Shown: positions 55,366 through 64,000 of the stretch, piece after piece
Layout of the letters: the number at the start of each line of letters is the position of its first letter
How positions within the stretch are numbered: position 1 is the first letter of the stretch
DNA from: Noviherbaspirillum sp. Root189
Lineage (GTDB): Bacteria; Pseudomonadota; Gammaproteobacteria; Burkholderiales; Burkholderiaceae_D
Length of the DNA: 64,000 bases
Assembly: GCF_001428545.1 (NCBI RefSeq)
Contig: NZ_LMHZ01000020.1
Coordinates: forward strand, 1 to 64,000
Reading direction: 5' to 3'
The notes under the pieces: generated by a model
The model's input: only the letters and a program-made list of their open reading frames with translations
What the model was told of the DNA's origin: nothing
The model's database searches: none
Translations under genes and position numbers: made by a program

Positions 55366-58300
55366 TCATGCCGCCTTGCGTGTCGCGAGAGCCTGCTCCA
55401 CCAGTGACAGGGTACGTTCCACCATCTCCCTGAATCGCGACATGTCCTCGGGTCTTTCACGGCGCTTCGCCAGCAATTCTTCCAGTTCGCCAGCGAATGC
55501 CGCCAGTTCCGTTGCGCCCACGTTGGCTGCCATGCCGCGCACCGTATGCACCGCCGATTTGGCCGTCATGTGGTCTCCCGCGCTGGCAGCTTGCAAGAAC
55601 TGCATCAGGCTGCCGGAAAGGCTGGGAATCAGCATTTCCAGCACGCGGTGATAGAGGTCGACGTCGTTAGACAAGCGGTACAGCGTGTCGGCCGTATCGA
55701 ATCCGGGAATGCTGATTGGGCCGCCATCCTCCGTTACCTCGGCTTCACCGCTCACGTCGTTTAAGTTCATGGATGCCGCCGTATCCGCAACAAATGCTGC
55801 GTTGTAGGCTACGCGTGCGTCAGCCGGTGTCAGCCAATACGCCAGCGTCCGGTAGAAATGCTCCGGATTGATCGGCTTGGTGATGTGGTCCTGCATGCCG
55901 CTGCGTACGCATTCCTCGCGTTCTTCCGCGGTTGCGTGAGCCGTCATTGCGACGATCGGCATGGCTGCAAAACGCTCATCCATCCGGATACGGCGGGTAG
56001 TCGCATGACCGCCCATTTCCGGCATCTGGATATCCATCAGTACCAGGTCGTACGCATGGGGTCCGCCTGCGAATACCTTATCCAGAGCAATGCGCCCATT
56101 CCCCGCTATGTCCACCTGCAAGCCGGTCGCTGCCAGCATTTCGCGGGCGATTTGCTGGTTGACCTCATTATCTTCCACGAGCAACACGCGGGCGCCGTCG
56201 AAGCGTGGCAAGGTACGCCGTATCGACGGTACCGACCGCGATGCGCCATCCTGGGCCAGGACATTCACAAATGTGTCGTGCAGACGAGACTGATCGATGG
56301 GTTTGAACAAGACCGCCGACACCGGCGCATTTTCAGCCTGGTGAATGACATCTTCACGACCGAAGGCCGTGATCAGGATAACTTTAGGCGGATAGGTCAA
56401 GTGGTCATTGGCGATCGCAGTAGCCAGCTCAAGCCCATTCATGTCTGGCATGCCAAGATCGGCCAGGATTAGGTCGTAAGGCGTCGTGGCATCGGCATGA
56501 CGGATCGCAGTGAGCGCGGTGGCGGCATCTTCGGTCGCATCCGCATGCAACTGGAAACCCTCTACCAGATCAGTCAGGATTTGCCGTGCCGCCGGATTGT
56601 CGTCAACAATCAGCACGCGACAGCCGAGCAGGCGATCAGGCAGGCCGGGAAGGGCTGTCGTGGTCAGCGCCCCCAGGCCAAAACGCAGGCTGAATCCAAA
56701 GGTCGATCCGGCGCCGGCCTCGCTGTGCAGCGACATGGTGCCGCCCATCATTTCCACTAGCCGGCGGCTGATGGCCAGGCCCAGACCCGTCCCGCCGTAT
56801 TTACGCGTGGTCGACTCGTCCGCCTGACTGAACGCATGGAATAACCGCGACTGCTGCTCGGGTGACATGCCGATACCGGTATCTTCCACTTCAAAGCGCA
56901 ACTCCACGCCGTCGGGATTGCTGCTGAGTACACGACAGCGCAACTGGACCTGACCGGCTGGCGTGAACTTGATGGCATTGCTCATCAGGTTGACCAGGAT
57001 CTGCCCTAGCCGCAACGGGTCACCGTTAAGATGCACCGGCACGTCTTCCGCAATATCGAACAGATAGCGCAAGCCTTTCTCGCTGGCACGCTGGCTGGTC
57101 ACGGTACTGACGTTGCCGAGCACTTCGTGCAGAGAAAAGTCAGTGGTCTCGATGCTCAGCTTGCCGGCCTCGATCTTTGAAAAATCCAGGATGTCATTGA
57201 TGATGCCAAGCAGCGAGACCGCGGCACGATGGATCTTTTCCACATAGTCGCGCTGCTTGCCGCTCAGCTCGGTACGCAGGGCCAGGTAAGCCATGCCGAT
57301 GACGGCATTCATCGGCGTACGGATCTCATGGCTCATGTTGGCGAGGAAGGCCGATTTCATCCGTGACGCTTCTTCAGCCCCTTCCTTGGCAATCTTGAGG
57401 GCGCGCTCATGTTCGCGTAATTCTTCATTGATGCGCGAGAGTTCGGCGGTGCGTTCCTGCACGCGTTGCTCCAGGATACGCTCGGACCGTTTCAGGCTGT
57501 CCACCAGTTGTTGTTGCGCGCTTTCCTTTTCTCGCCTGACCTGGTTGAAACGATCCGCTAGCGCCAGGGAAAGCAGCAGCATTTCCAGCGCCGATCCGAT
57601 TTGCATGCCGTAGACGGTAAGGAAGTTCGGAATGCCCTTGACGCCGTAGCTGCGCAGCGCCGTCAGCACCGCTGCGAATACGAGGCAGCTGAAGGCCAGC
57701 AGGAAAAATCGCGCACTGCGCTGTCCGCGTAGTTTGCAGACCACGCCGACGATCAGGGCCAGCAGCATGTTGGCCGCATCGACCGTGATGCCGGTGGCAA
57801 TCATCTTGTGATAAGGCAGGAACCAGAAGCCTGCCATCTGCACGATATTGAGCACGAGGAAGCCGCGCATCACCCTGTCCAGCCACGGTACCGTATCGTA
57901 GGTCGATAACAGGCGACGCTGGAACAAGAGCAAGGTAAAGCCGGTCAGGCCAAAGCCGATCATGGACGAAATCATCGACCAACCCGGCGATTCCGGCCAC
58001 AGGAACTGGAATCCAATGCCGCTGAATGCCACGATCGACAACGCATTGGCGGCGACGAACAGCACGTAATACAGATAGGTGCGGTCGCGCAGTGAAGCAA
58101 ACAACAGAAAGTTGTAGAGTCCCAGCGCAAGCAGCATGCCGAAATACAGTGACTGACCGATATATTCGCGCAGGCTCTGCTGGTTGAACACCGCTGGTTC
58201 CCACAGTTTGGCGGGAATATCGAGCGAGGTGCCCGAAGCCGCACGCAGGTAGTAAGTACCTTCGGACTTGCTGGCCAGGTGCAGCGGGAAAACGAAATTG

Positions 58301-58746
58301 CGATGGTTGACGGGTCGGTGAGAAAATGGCAGCGAGTGACCGGTTTCGATCCTTTCGTAACCCTGTTCGCCAGGGACAAAGAGCTGGACCGAATGCAGGT
58401 GGGTAAATGCAACCTCAAGCAGTCGTTCGTGGTCTTCGCCGGATGCGTTTGCAAAGGTAATACGCAGCCAGATCGCCGAGCGGCGCAAGCCAAAGTTAAG
58501 GGAATCGGTCTGCTGCAGCGACGGTTTGAATCTGCCCGCCATTTCGGGCGTCCGAATGTCGTCGATGGTCCACTTTTGCTCCTCGTCCTCCAGGACATCC
58601 CAGTGCGGCGTCAGATTGACCGGCTTGCCAAGGGCCGTATCATCGACCCGCAGTTCGCCCGCCCGACCCGCCGCAACGCTGACAGCCAGCAGTATAAAAA
58701 CGCTCCAGTATCGCAGCCAACGTTGTCCGAGGCTCATCCGCTTCAC
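55366..58746 (-). CDS. 7TM hybrid histidine kinase with two receivers and HPt
   Basis: Phosphorelay sensor of 1126 aa. Signal peptide (1-29), a periplasmic 7TMR-DISM extracellular beta domain (about 35-180), seven helices (about 197-400), and coiled coil (405-455). The kinase core has HisKA His473 ([12 protein letters not shown]) and an ATPase domain with N590 (NAIKF), DTGIGM and [12 protein letters not shown]1 has Asp763 ([11 protein letters not shown]), REC2 Asp905 ([11 protein letters not shown]) and HPt His1067 ([14 protein letters not shown]). All phospho-sites are intact. DISM domains often bind carbohydrate or small ligands; the signal here is unknown. No DNA-binding output domain or cognate regulator gene is adjacent. 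Confidence 0.94.
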
Positions 58747-58931: not shown

Positions 58932-60701
58932 ATGAGCAAGGAATGTCAGCATCAAGCGGTCATCGTTGGCAGCGGTTTCGGCGGTGCGGTCATGTCTGCA
59001 CGGCTTTCCAGAAAATGGCCCGGAGCCGTTCTGCTGCTGGAGCGCGGCAAGGAATACCCGTTGGGAGCCTTTCCCCGCAGTCCCCATGATCTGGCCGACA
59101 ATGTCTGGTGCCCGGACGGTGACGCGGTCCGCAGGCCGCGGGCGGTAAGGAACCGCAAGGCCCGGCGCGGTCATCTTACCGGGATGTTCGACATCCGCCA
59201 TTTCAACAAGATTGATACCGTCACGTCGGCGCTGTATGGCGGCGGTTCCCACATTTATGCCAATGTTTTCCTGCGCCCTCCGGCGGCTGTCTTTGAACAG
59301 GGATGGCCGCAGGGATTGCGACGCGAACGACTGCTGCCCTATTACGACGTGGCGCAGCAGGTATTGGGGGCTCGCCCCGTTCCGCCTGCCAGCGGTCCTG
59401 AAGATCGTCGTTACATCAAGCGTACCGAGCAGTTCCAGGCGTTTGCCCGCGAGGCAAAGCTGACCACGCGGCTGGCCGATATCGCTGTCTATTTCGGTAA
59501 CGACTATACCTATAAGCGCAACGGCGCGGCCTTGCCGCTCGGTGTGCAGGAAGCCAACCGCTACGGCGCACTGCAGACCTCCTGTACCTATTGCGGCGAA
59601 TGTGATATTGGCTGCAATGTGCAGGCAAAGAATTCGGTGGATCACAATTATCTGCATGTCGCCCGGCATCGCTACGGCATGGCGGTCCGTACGCAGTCGG
59701 TGGTGGAGCGTGTCGTGCCGCTGAATGCCTTGCACGAAGACGATCCGGACTGCGACGGGCAGTTCGGATTTCGTGTGTACTTTCGCGATATCCGCCTTGG
59801 TAAAACGCATGCCGTCACCACCCGGCGCGTGGTGCTGTCGGCCGGTACACTGGGCACCACCGAACTGCTTTTCCGGTGCCGCGACATTCATCGGACACTG
59901 CCGCGTGTGTCTTCGCGTCTCGGGCAGCAATTCTCGGGCAATGGCGACTTTCTTTCTTTTGCCATTGGCGGCAAAAAAGAAGTGAATTCCACCTATGGCC
60001 CGGTGATCACGCAGTACACAGACCACCACCTGTTTGAAAACCTCGACCGCAAGCAAGCCTTCCTGCTGGAAGACGCCAGCTATCCCACGCAGGTTGGCTG
60101 GGCAACGGCGGCGCTCAGCCCCATGATGAATCCTTTCCAGAGGATCTGGCAAAGCGCCCGGCAAATGCTGGCGTATATATTCGATCGTTATTACCCAGGG
60201 CGCAAGCAAAGCAGCGTCGGTTTCCTGGTTCAGAAATTGTTTTCGCACGACTTGTCGCAATACAGCGCGGTACTGCTCTGCATGGGGCTGGACAATGCAA
60301 AGGGCGTTCTCAGCCTGAACAAGGATGGTTACCTCGATATCGACTGGCCCCAGGAAAGCAACCGCCCGCTATACGACGCCATTCTGCAACTCGGTGAGCG
60401 CTTTACCCGCTTCATCGGCGGCAAGCATTTCCTTCCCATGCCGACCTGGTTGTGGCCGGTCAAAAATAATGTGACGGTGCACCCGCTCGGTGGCGCGGTG
60501 CTTGCCGATTCGCTGCAACAGGGTGTGGTCAGCGCTTGCGAAGGCAGCCGTGGACAGGTGTTTGGCTACCGGAATCTGTATGTCGCCGACGGCTCACTCG
60601 TGCCGACCGCGCTGGGCGCCAATCCGGTGGCGACCATTACCGCTCTGTCCGAATGGATTGCCGAAGAACTGACCGGCATGACGCCGGACAGCGACCTTTA
60701 A
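58932..60701 (+). CDS. GMC-type FAD oxidoreductase (cholesterol-oxidase-like)
   Basis: Flavoprotein of 589 aa. The N-terminal FAD-binding motif is VIVGSGFGGAVMSARLS (about 10-26) with LLLERGKEY (acid end of the fold). The C-terminal NVTVHPLGGAVLAD and VADGSLVPTALGANPVATITALSE regions carry the catalytic His and the FAD-binding end as in GMC/cholesterol oxidases. A C-x2-C-x2-C-x3-C motif (Cys218, 221, 224, 228: SCTYCGECDIGC) lies in the substrate-domain region and resembles a ferredoxin cluster. No signal peptide is present. GGGAGGATAG precedes ATG. It heads a coupled set with the hydrolase (13 bases on) and the phosphoesterase; the substrate is likely a lipid alcohol or sterol-like molecule, by inference. 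Confidence 0.85.
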   Translation: MSKECQHQAVIVGSGFGGAVMSARLSRKWPGAVLLLERGKEYPLGAFPRSPHDLADNVWCPDGDAVRRPRAVRNRKARRGHLTGMFDIRHFNKIDTVTSALYGGGSHIYANVFLRPPAAVFEQGWPQGLRRERLLPYYDVAQQVLGARPVPPASGPEDRRYIKRTEQFQAFAREAKLTTRLADIAVYFGNDYTYKRNGAALPLGVQEANRYGALQTSCTYCGECDIGCNVQAKNSVDHNYLHVARHRYGMAVRTQSVVERVVPLNALHEDDPDCDGQFGFRVYFRDIRLGKTHAVTTRRVVLSAGTLGTTELLFRCRDIHRTLPRVSSRLGQQFSGNGDFLSFAIGGKKEVNSTYGPVITQYTDHHLFENLDRKQAFLLEDASYPTQVGWATAALSPMMNPFQRIWQSARQMLAYIFDRYYPGRKQSSVGFLVQKLFSHDLSQYSAVLLCMGLDNAKGVLSLNKDGYLDIDWPQESNRPLYDAILQLGERFTRFIGGKHFLPMPTWLWPVKNNVTVHPLGGAVLADSLQQGVVSACEGSRGQVFGYRNLYVADGSLVPTALGANPVATITALSEWIAEELTGMTPDSDL

Positions 60702-60714
60702 AGGGGGAGTGTTC

Positions 60715-62508
60715 ATGCACGATATTCAAGCGCAGAAGGCGGCCGCAGGGACGACAACACCCGCGGCCGGTGAACTGCACGATGTCAAGATTCGCTTCGC
60801 CGAAGTCATGAAGGGCTATGTCAGCGCCGAGGCGACGACTTTTTCAGATGGCCATGACGACGGCAAGGCCGCAGGGCATGCGCTCGCATTGCATGTCACG
60901 GTCGCCATCGAAGATCTTGGCGCATTCCTCTCACAGGCTGAGCACGCCGGCACGCTCAGCGGCCATATCGAATGCGCGTTGCTGGGTGGGGTCTGTCCGG
61001 TGCAGTCCGGCACTTTCCGGCTGATGCCGGACACCGCCGACCGCGACCGCAAGGTCATGTATTACCAGGTGTATTGCACCACGCCGCAAGGCGAGCCGCT
61101 TACCTTCATCGGCAACAAGCAGGTCCAGCATGATGCGCCGCTCGATACCTGGAAGGACACGACCACGTTGTTCGTCAACGTCTTCCACGGGCATATCGAT
61201 CCCGCCGAACCATCGCATGGCGAATTATGGGTAACCGGGATCATCAGTCTTGGCCTCATGGATTTCATGCAAGTCTTGCGCGGACTGCGCGCAACCGATG
61301 CGAGTGGTACGACCAGTGTCGCGGGTCTGGTGGCCTTTGGCCGGTTTTTTGCAGGCAAGCTATGGGACGTTTATGGGCCGCATCTCCCGCCGGCACCCAG
61401 CCAGCCGCAGCGGCGCTATGCCAGATTCACGACTGAAGGTGTTACGGGTGCCGAGATCAGCACGCATCCCTTTCTCACTGCGGACGGTCTGCGGCTGGAA
61501 CTGACCCGCTTTGCACGGTCGCCTTGCGACGATGTGGTGTTGATCATGCATGGGCTGACCAGCTCCTCGGACATGTTCATCATGCCCGAGCACCAGAATC
61601 TTGTGCAGACCCTGCTCGATGAAGGCTATGGTGAAGTCTGGACACTGGATTACCGCGGTAGTTGCCGCTTTCCGTATAACCTGGCACGCACCCCGTATAC
61701 CTTTGACGATATCGCCTTGTTCGACCATCCGGCGGCGTTGCATGAACTGCGCCGCCACATCGGTCCGCAACGCCGCGTGCATGTCATTGCGCATTGCGTC
61801 GGCGCGCTGACCATGGCGATGAGCCTGTTTGGCAAGACAGTTGGCGGCATCAGCAGCGCCATTCTGAACAGCGTCGCACTTACGCCTTATGTCCCGAAAT
61901 GGTCGCAATACAAGCTTGCCATCGGCCCCTGGGCCTCCGACTACCTGCTGGGTATCGATTATTACAATCCGGGCTGGCGGCGTGAGCGCGGTTGGTCGAT
62001 CGGCAAACTGCTGGCCTTGAGTGCCGATTTCGTGCATCAGGAATGCGATTCGCCGGAATGCCACATGCTGAGCTTCATGTGGGGCAGCGGCAGGCCGGCA
62101 CTGTTCAACCATGCCAACATGCTGCCGGTGACGCATGACCGCCTTGGCGATCTGTTCGGCGGTGTCGGCGTGCATTATTACCGTCACATACACAGAATGG
62201 TCACCAGCGGCCACCGCGCCGTGAAGTTCGATCCTGACAACACGCGCTATGCCGCGCTGCCGGACGACTATACCAGCGATGTCGCGGATATCCCGACACC
62301 CATCCTGCTCATGCAAGGCCAGGACAATCATGTGTTTGCGGATTCCAATATCCGCTGTCATGACATGCTGGAGAAGTTGGTTCCGGGCCGTCATCGCCTG
62401 CATGTGGTTCCCGGATATGGCCACCAGGATATCTTCATGGGCAAGGATGCGGCGAACGACGTGTTCCCGCATCTGATTTCTTTTTTGCGCGAGCATAGCC
62501 ATGACTGA
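60715..62508 (+). CDS. Two-domain alpha/beta hydrolase with apparent Cys nucleophile
   Basis: Protein of 597 aa. Residues about 25-240 form a beta-rich domain with the pattern VSAEATTFSDG, FRLMPD and TWKDTTTLFVNVFHGH, which I recall as fused to GMC oxidoreductases in longer proteins. Residues 250-597 are an alpha/beta hydrolase: oxyanion region VLIMHGLTSSSDMF, nucleophile elbow VIAHCVGAL with Cys361 where Ser is usual, Asp537 (QGQDNHVF) and His570 (PGYGHQD). A Cys-Asp-His triad recalls PHA synthases. There is no signal peptide. GGGGGAG lies before the ATG at 60715; a GTG at 60709 is too close to it. Its end overlaps the next gene by 8 bases. Confidence 0.8.
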   Translation: MHDIQAQKAAAGTTTPAAGELHDVKIRFAEVMKGYVSAEATTFSDGHDDGKAAGHALALHVTVAIEDLGAFLSQAEHAGTLSGHIECALLGGVCPVQSGTFRLMPDTADRDRKVMYYQVYCTTPQGEPLTFIGNKQVQHDAPLDTWKDTTTLFVNVFHGHIDPAEPSHGELWVTGIISLGLMDFMQVLRGLRATDASGTTSVAGLVAFGRFFAGKLWDVYGPHLPPAPSQPQRRYARFTTEGVTGAEISTHPFLTADGLRLELTRFARSPCDDVVLIMHGLTSSSDMFIMPEHQNLVQTLLDEGYGEVWTLDYRGSCRFPYNLARTPYTFDDIALFDHPAALHELRRHIGPQRRVHVIAHCVGALTMAMSLFGKTVGGISSAILNSVALTPYVPKWSQYKLAIGPWASDYLLGIDYYNPGWRRERGWSIGKLLALSADFVHQECDSPECHMLSFMWGSGRPALFNHANMLPVTHDRLGDLFGGVGVHYYRHIHRMVTSGHRAVKFDPDNTRYAALPDDYTSDVADIPTPILLMQGQDNHVFADSNIRCHDMLEKLVPGRHRLHVVPGYGHQDIFMGKDAANDVFPHLISFLREHSHD

Positions 62509-64000
62509 TATGTCGGACATATCGAACATGAATGCAGAGGCCAGGCCAGCGTTACCGCCCGGTCTGGTGCTATGGCCCGCAGGTACTGCACCTTCCAACC
62601 GGCTCTGTGTGCTGATCAGCGATATCCATTGTACGGATTGCACGGTCGGCAACCAGACCGCGTCGGAGACCGACTGGCAATTGTTTTTCGAGCAGATGGA
62701 ATTTGCGGTCTGTAATCCCGGCGATAAGGCTCATCCTTCCTCCGCGCACCGGGTCGATGAACTGATGCTCATCCTCAATGGCGACATTGTCGACCTGATA
62801 CGCAGCAGCAAATGGGCGCAGGCCGGCGTCTATCCGTGGCAGCGCGACGATCCGCGATTCGGCGAGATCGTGCTCGACATCATGCGCGACATCGTGCGAA
62901 TCCATGCGCATAAGCGGCCGAAAGATAGCAGCCAGCCGTACTCGGGCTTCTTTTACTGGATGCGCAAGAGCCTGGCGATATTGCACCGGAGTGGCGTGCG
63001 CGTCAGCATCATTCCGATTGTCGGCAACCACGACAAGGAACTGCAAGTAGTACCCGATGCGCGGCAAATGTTCTACGAAGAATGTCTTGGGCTGACGGCA
63101 CTCGATATTCCCGACAGCTATCGCAGGTGGGTTGCGGCACAACTCGGTACGTCCCCGGATGAGCTTTATCCCAGTCTGCCTTTTTATGTGGCGGACATCG
63201 GCATGCGTTTGCTTGCGACCCACGGTCAATGGCGGGATGCCGATAATTCGCGCGCCACATCGGGCTGGCGGCCGGGCATGGGCTGGACTCCCGATGTCTG
63301 GCGGAAGGAAAGCTACCGTGCCTTCAGCGACCCGTGTTTTGGTGACACGGTGGCCGCAGGCATGCTGTCGCACTTCATCTGGTGTACCGAGCAGCGTATC
63401 GACCCTTCGATACCGGGCGCGCCGCGCGTATGCAACCTGCTTGATGAAATGGATCTGTATCGTCCTTCGATTGCGGCCGTCGTGCGCCTGCTGAGTGAGT
63501 CGCGCCGCCTCGCACGGCGCGACCCGAAAGCAAAAGGATTGCATGCACAGGTCCTGCAATGCTTTCGCGAAAGTCTGGTGGGGTGGCTGGCGCAGAAAGC
63601 GACTTGGGACAGTGCGATGGGCACTACCAAGATGGGGCTGTATGTACTGTGGCTGCTGACCAAGCCGAAATGGTACTGGCTCGATATTTCGCTGATGCGG
63701 TTGATGGCAAAGGTGCAAGAGCCGGAATCAAACATCACCGACAAGGATTTACTGGGATTGCCGGCCTTTGGCGATGGTTACCGTGAACTCGGATTGCGCC
63801 TGCATGTGGAAGGACATACCCATGTGGCGTTGGAAGCGGATGTGCAATTTCAGTCGCTGCCGGACGGACGCAACAACTACACGTACGTCAATCTTGGCGC
63901 GTGGCGCGACGCAATTCTGCGCAAGCGTAGCCGCGGCTTCCGACGGCGCGGTATCGGTCGCGCACTGTTCGTCTTCGATCTGGCCAGGCTGCCAGCCAGC
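62501..64000 (+). CDS. Calcineurin-like metallophosphoesterase, C-terminally cut by the window
   Basis: The open frame runs 500 codons to the window edge without a stop. It starts inside the hydrolase gene (ATGACTGA overlap), indicating translational coupling. Dimetal motifs in order are SDIH (Asp41-x-His43), NGDIVD (Gly94-Asp95...Asp98), VGNHD (Gly175-Asn-His-Asp) and, late in the frame, EGHTH. A long insert with hydrophobic stretches (MGLYVLWLLTKPKWYWLDISLM) lies between the GNHD and GHTH motifs and may lie at a membrane. No signal peptide is present. Typical MPE domains are about 250-300 aa, so this is a large variant. Substrate unknown. Confidence 0.82.
   Translation, partial: MTDMSDISNMNAEARPALPPGLVLWPAGTAPSNRLCVLISDIHCTDCTVGNQTASETDWQLFFEQMEFAVCNPGDKAHPSSAHRVDELMLILNGDIVDLIRSSKWAQAGVYPWQRDDPRFGEIVLDIMRDIVRIHAHKRPKDSSQPYSGFFYWMRKSLAILHRSGVRVSIIPIVGNHDKELQVVPDARQMFYEECLGLTALDIPDSYRRWVAAQLGTSPDELYPSLPFYVADIGMRLLATHGQWRDADNSRATSGWRPGMGWTPDVWRKESYRAFSDPCFGDTVAAGMLSHFIWCTEQRIDPSIPGAPRVCNLLDEMDLYRPSIAAVVRLLSESRRLARRDPKAKGLHAQVLQCFRESLVGWLAQKATWDSAMGTTKMGLYVLWLLTKPKWYWLDISLMRLMAKVQEPESNITDKDLLGLPAFGDGYRELGLRLHVEGHTHVALEADVQFQSLPDGRNNYTYVNLGAWRDAILRKRSRGFRRRGIGRALFVFDLARLPAS

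Follow-up and report, generated by a model that had tools for sequence, protein, structure and literature searches.

What do three tightly coupled genes at the 3' end of a 64,000-nucleotide stretch of Noviherbaspirillum sp. Root189 DNA (contig NZ_LMHZ01000020.1, positions 1 to 64,000, hereafter the window) do together? They encode a GMC oxidoreductase, an alpha/beta hydrolase with a cysteine nucleophile and a calcineurin-like metallophosphoesterase, and an initial annotation of the window read them as one system that acts on a lipid-like alcohol. With moderate confidence we favor the answer that the trio is a conserved enzyme module processing one substrate class. Its observed base is the linkage of the genes, the fusions between them, the conservation of catalytic-type residues and the recurrent pairing with metallophosphoesterases. 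The genes and elements considered are the following.

58932..60701, plus strand: GMC oxidoreductase of 589 aa, with Pfam matches to PF00732 and PF05199
59583..59615, plus strand: codons for the Cys218-Cys228 motif of the GMC protein (putative Fe-S site), computed from residue numbers
60715..62508, plus strand: Cys-nucleophile alpha/beta hydrolase of 597 aa, with a Pfam match to PF00561
60772..61404, plus strand: N-terminal domain of the hydrolase, about residues 20-230 (coordinates computed)
61795..61797, plus strand: nucleophile codon of the hydrolase, Cys361 in AHCVG (coordinates computed)
62501..64066, plus strand: calcineurin-like metallophosphoesterase of 521 aa, with metal-site motifs and Metallophos in its orthologues, running 66 bases beyond the window end
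55366..58746, minus strand: 7TMR-DISM hybrid histidine kinase with two REC domains and an Hpt domain, divergent neighbor of the trio

The coupling claimed for the three same-strand genes is borne out in coordinates, strand and spacing. The GMC and hydrolase genes are separated by 13 bases when the hydrolase starts at the ATG at 60715 (an alternative GTG at 60709 leaves 7 bases), and the hydrolase and phosphoesterase genes overlap by 8 bases (62501-62508). The window end falls inside the 77,366-base contig, and the phosphoesterase frame stops at 64066 (L002:6066). The enzyme classes also hold, through Pfam matches for the first two genes and through the orthologues for the third, and the three N-termini, read by eye without a predictor, show no evident signal peptide, in line with the initial annotation.

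We examine how constant this arrangement is among relatives, where genomes and loci carry G and L numbers. Of 245 genomes searched in the family, 28 match the hydrolase, the window's own included. A close, intact hydrolase (at least 71% identity) occurs in 13 genomes, and all 13 have the trio in the window order; in one further genome, G209, the three genes survive only as fragments. Within the genus, 10 of the 14 other genomes have the trio, and in the remaining 4 the hydrolase finds no match. Noviherbaspirillum and near relatives supply the closest named public loci; the public loci L042-L048 are left out of the 13-genome count, and four of them (L043, L044, L045, L046) repeat the 8-base overlap of the second and third genes, given the start codons judged likely.

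Outside the genomes with the trio, the GMC and hydrolase parts are mostly fused into one protein of about 1120-1370 aa. When 185 genomes of the class are searched, the hydrolase is matched in 6 (again counting the window's own), and the matches include frames of 1147 and 1159 aa that start with a GMC domain as well as frames near 2000 aa. Two of these longest proteins, L053 and L061, were scanned with Pfam and carry GMC, hydrolase and PhoD phosphatase in a single chain. Extended from these two by BLAST, profile and PF09423 searches, the set of such giants, of 1884-2096 aa, comprises 8 genomes (L053, L055, L061, L063, L067, L112, L164, L165). It leaves aside L054, whose phosphatase part is divided between two frames, and L062, which is cut by a contig end; frames of 1906-1930 aa in G376, G387 and G413 are candidates that also stand outside it. 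In G476 a separate PhoD gene lies directly downstream of a 1369-aa GMC-hydrolase, to which the 2019-aa protein of G992, holding all three domains, is 59-65% identical. The GMC tree and the hydrolase tree each place the giants in a single clade with G476 nested inside, so that a single fusion, later split once, is their probable origin. Taken together, the constant gene order, the fusions of the first two genes and the single chains with PhoD support well the claim that the trio is one system.

We turn to whether a phosphoesterase also accompanies the GMC-hydrolase core where the two enzymes occur without the window's arrangement. Counting the giants separately, we consider 18 other core loci, and a metallophosphoesterase of one of several families lies within two genes of the core at 8 of them. 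In G194b and Variovorax it belongs to one family (44% identical) and is directly upstream of the core; Azospirillum, G661 and G411 share a second (31-34% identical); G549 has a third, behind a RoxA-like cytochrome; the G727 gene is related to the window's by profile; and the linked gene in G476 is PhoD. G411 was a candidate for a locus without a phosphoesterase, rejected when the 658-aa gene between its patatin and GMC genes proved to be one (33% identical to the Azospirillum gene, and 19.9 bits in Pfam against a cut-off of 21.5). Two neighbors named by eye, presumably SbcD-like beside the G185 giant and LpxH-like beside the G174 hydrolase, are taken as housekeeping genes and not counted. Left out of the 18 are G235b (its fusion adjoins a contig end), G174 (its hydrolase and GMC genes lie on separate contigs), G740 and G749 (congeners of G727), five Rhodococcus plasmids (the one inspected has no annotated GMC in the stretch), the second Pseudonocardia and second Rhizobium plasmids, Persicobacter, Arthrobacter, G1108, and matches to the GMC or PhoD domain only (most of 69 among 299 in one search; G726 and G949).

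With the density of PF00149 and PF09423 genes as background, one expects such a gene within 5 kb at about 0.45 loci, and 8 of 18 gives a Poisson P of 3e-8. Only 4 of 17 are seen by the same models as the background (P 1e-3), and 3 of 16 without G476, which was found by a PhoD-containing query (P 0.009); these weaker values are the fairer test. The PF00149 search misses the G549 gene, and those of G661 and G411 fall at or under its cut-off.

A second line of evidence comes from genomes where the window-type phosphoesterase is found. It is rare: among 349 other genomes drawn evenly from the class, 3 carry it (G052, G522 and G1108), and no core gene lies within the 19-20 kb around it in these three. 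G052 and G522, however, hold a GMC-hydrolase fusion elsewhere in the genome. Against a background of non-giant core genes in 3/184 and 3/298 other genomes of two class searches, the joint chance of this co-occurrence is roughly 2e-4. It is judged on G052 and G522, the two carriers of known core status; G159 and G174, which have core genes and may or may not have been part of the draw, are not among the phosphoesterase matches.

Several observations weigh against the module. Ten of the 18 other core loci have no linked phosphoesterase: G052, G159, G194a, G235a, two G522 loci, and the Pseudonocardia, Leptospira, Rhizobium and Bernardetia plasmids. (In G052, G159 and G194a the contig stops on one side within about 1.5 kb of the locus, and the second G522 locus has the hydrolase, an acetoacetate-decarboxylase-family gene and a patatin with the N-terminal domain, with no GMC match.) The background is limited to PF00149 and PF09423, so that chance is understated for divergent families. 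The window phosphoesterase has no Pfam match to the PhoD phosphatases (PF09423) and an hhalign probability of 0.2 with them; the phosphoesterases are thus not all related by sequence, and the case for a shared step depends on superfamily function. Long hydrophobic stretches, noted by eye in the Azospirillum partner, fit a cytosolic pathway less well. The AlphaFold models, each built from 8 close homologues, are poor for both the phosphoesterase (mean pLDDT 56.4) and the hydrolase (47.7), the former finds nothing in the PDB with Foldseek at E < 0.001, and the acid expected at Asp537 of the hydrolase varies across the alignment.

A rival reading, favored by the unlinked loci, takes GMC and Cys-hydrolase as the real two-enzyme unit and the phosphoesterase as a passenger, there by accident or recruited locally. 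The window-type phosphoesterase standing alone in three genomes points the same way. The initial annotation had named homologues scattered without linkage as the finding that would speak against a system; this is seen only in part, as two of the genomes with unlinked cores (G052 and G522) have a homologue of the window's phosphoesterase elsewhere. We nevertheless regard a passenger as unlikely, given PhoD in single chains in eight genomes, the several families paired with the core and the co-occurrence in G052 and G522. The trio rather looks like a recurrent functional unit whose phosphoesterase has been exchanged over time, as judged from the sequence comparisons.

The phosphoesterase itself has the motifs SDIH, NGDxxD, GNHDKE, THGQ and GHTH. 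Residues D41/H43, D95, N176/H177, H241 and H439/H441 are invariant in alignments A1 and A5, and the metal motifs are kept also in three distant relatives of 35-39% identity. The window protein (P0003) scores 17.7 bits against PF00149, under the cut-off of 21.5; Metallophos is detected in 7 of 8 orthologues (best E 8e-6), and the distant relatives give 24.3 bits (L173), 16.2 bits (L174) and no match (L172). No NCBIfam family matches the first 500 of its 521 aa at E 1e-3. LpxH was considered as an identity and rejected on this result, the library being one that we take to contain an LpxH model. PDB sequence searches with the protein alone and as two profiles yield no convincing relative, matches in PHROGs are weak (the best a metallo-phosphoesterase, E 0.051), and no plasmid match is found at E 0.01.

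Could such an enzyme be regulatory, a cyclic-nucleotide phosphodiesterase, instead of a pathway enzyme? Some calcineurin-like enzymes hydrolyse cyclic nucleotides, and a class III nucleotide cyclase-AAA protein is a recurring neighbor of GMC-hydrolase fusions (L058, L059, L099, L164, L165); in L099, L164 and L165, from another class, a divergent cyclase-AAA protein takes the place of the kinase. No class III cyclase is found, however, among the scanned proteins beside the window trio, which has GGDEF-EAL and EAL/HDOD proteins nearby, and six giants have a hybrid kinase directly upstream instead. The covalent joining of PhoD to both enzymes favors a common substrate, and we think a regulatory role quite improbable.

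The kinase beside the trio had been suggested to sense the same compound. Its divergent position is confirmed, and in 13 of 13 genomes with the trio it stands there. Its dedication is less clear: a close copy of the kinase survives in trio-less G242 (60% identical) and G265 (66% over 700 residues, in a frame of 1005 aa) and in G209, which makes the coupling uncertain, so that we call it syntenic and not clearly dedicated to the trio. Trio-less G207 and G312 show only generic kinase matches. In G209 the decayed trio (L064:5344-6654) lies beside a full-length kinase frame. Scans of three of the kinases upstream of the giants show a likeness to the NahK/ErcS group, and two neighboring regulators are similar to ErdR, in every case with scores under the cut-off.

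For the hydrolase, the nucleophile at position 361 is Cys in 32 of 32 aligned members. His570 is found in 27 of the 32, the other five being gapped, probably as a result of six rows trimmed to 331 aa. With Foldseek, the best 50 PDB matches of the hydrolase model are mainly alpha/beta-hydrolase-fold enzymes. The domain of about 200 aa that precedes the hydrolase domain is also present in the fusions, where it separates the GMC and hydrolase parts, and in other clusters it follows patatin. Next to the stand-alone Cys-hydrolase, a gene of the acetoacetate-decarboxylase family is a recurring neighbor (L166, L060, L168 and L051); a patatin fused to the N-terminal domain follows in L166 and L060, with a similar protein in L168. 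PHA synthases use Cys, and with a Cys nucleophile throughout, the hydrolase might be a polyester-synthase-like acyltransferase in an operon that makes, not degrades, a storage or envelope lipid. We give this only a small chance of being right, for no PhaC-type Pfam domain is found on the hydrolase at E 1e-3 and its PDB sequence matches are lipases.

The GMC protein has GxGxxG at its N-terminus. In an alignment of 36 GMC domains the active-site-type His517 is present in all 36 and Asn564 in 32, and we take them to be the counterparts of the cholesterol oxidase active-site residues. Type I cholesterol oxidases also have an active-site Glu, and the segment for it falls outside the aligned part. 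Residues 218-228 form a CxxCxxCxxxC motif in which C218, C224 and C228 are kept in 36/36 domains and C221 in 35/36, and the segment is a gap in cholesterol oxidase. The pattern is one we associate with Fe-S proteins, and it suggests a putative Fe-S site. Gene 1 had been called an oxidase: its GMC family stands, and the near-invariant Cys4 motif makes the "oxidase" label uncertain. RoxA-like and MauG-type dihaem cytochromes adjoin two GMC-hydrolase fusions (L100:13199-15136 and L049:5933-7018), where they could act as electron acceptors or peroxidases. In L056 and L057 a fusion and a second GMC gene lie beside an apparent branched-chain-type ABC transporter (by eye). A role of the GMC protein in oxidising sugars to acids, with the trio helping to mobilise phosphate, is very improbable: the precedent, a Collimonas GMC oxidoreductase that turns glucose into gluconate in mineral weathering, works with a small subunit exported by Tat and with a cytochrome subunit (PMC12542777), whereas neither gene is seen among those adjoining the trio, and the nearest family is cholesterol oxidase.

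Around the trio, the next gene on the same strand encodes the EAL/HDOD protein (start at about 64118 to 64250, frame end 65539), and a promoter and terminator scan returns no more candidates than shuffled sequence. Farther 3' (66178-77365; L002:8178-19365) lies an acyl-CoA catabolic cluster, named by eye, with a fused acyl-CoA carboxylase, an ABC binding protein, a TetR regulator, an acyl-CoA ligase and acyl-CoA dehydrogenases; portions of it keep their position in several relatives.

Combining this information, we propose how the module may work on one substrate class, probably in the cytosol. In the first step the FAD-dependent GMC enzyme would, like cholesterol oxidase, use His517 and Asn564 to dehydrogenate a bulky hydrophobic alcohol; it may hand the electrons through a putative Cys4 Fe-S site to an external acceptor, not to oxygen. 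In the second, the acid-lipase-like hydrolase would form an acyl-S-Cys361 intermediate and cleave or transfer an acyl ester of the same molecule. In the third, the dimetal phosphoesterase would take off a phosphate or phospho-headgroup. We infer that one lipid-like molecule may serve all three enzymes, as we do the step order, the Fe-S site and the acceptor. The substrate would be an acylated, phosphorylated lipid-like alcohol, on the grounds that the relatives are cholesterol oxidase and acid lipases, that patatin and acetoacetate-decarboxylase-family genes are neighbors, and that the PhoD family includes a phospholipase D (PMC4223295); a sugar or other alcohol is also possible. The lipid-like alcohol of the initial annotation is thus plausible from solved relatives and neighbors. 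In its widest form, put forward tentatively and with confidence just short of even, the proposal is a new pathway in bacteria whose substrate is an isoprenoid- or sterol-like lipid with acyl and phosphate groups, and in which a fixed core of Fe-S GMC dehydrogenase and Cys acid-lipase homologue has independently recruited different dimetal phosphoesterase families, once up to a tri-functional chain of about 2000 residues.

Through the fusions, a guess made from one operon becomes a claim open to test: the three activities belong together. Should the substrate prove to be a sterol- or hopanoid-like lipid, an unknown branch of bacterial lipid metabolism would be opened. Directly testable enzymology is offered both by the Cys-for-Ser exchange in a relative of the acid lipases and by the Cys4 motif in a relative of cholesterol oxidase. 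Full-text searches of open-licence literature list no paper that, judged by its title and the opening of its abstract, describes a module of GMC or cholesterol oxidase with phosphoesterase, PhoD, patatin or lipase; this is weak evidence of novelty because most subscription journals lie outside the searched literature.

We close by setting the trio beside the systems it most resembles. Cholesterol oxidase (NCBIfam NF058674) is the best PDB and NCBIfam match of the GMC protein, at 189.6 bits against a curated cut-off of 850, which is not reached, and its His and Asn are retained (alignment to 4rek); unlike it, the window protein has the extra CxxCxxCxxxC motif and shares its operon with a hydrolase, to which GMC domains elsewhere are mostly fused. 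The acid lipases (gastric lipase, and lysosomal acid lipase / cholesteryl ester hydrolase) are the only PDB sequence matches of the hydrolase, with E up to 0.1, and Abhydro_lipase (PF04083) gives 20.7 bits, below its cut-off of 27. The window protein differs from them in the Cys that replaces the Ser of GxSxG, in having no evident signal peptide and in the added N-terminal domain. With the calcineurin-like metallophosphoesterases (PF00149) the third protein shares the metal-site motifs. The G727-type cluster (G727, G749) has the order hydrolase, acetoacetate decarboxylase family, patatin with N-terminal domain, GMC, phosphoesterase; its GMC and hydrolase are 52% and 34% identical to the window's. 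It adds the decarboxylase-family and patatin genes, and carries the N-terminal domain on the patatin, not on the hydrolase. That its phosphoesterase and the window's are unrelated was entertained and rejected when the wider profile A5 joined them: it lies directly after GMC and is related to the window's with an hhalign probability of 92 (P 6e-7).

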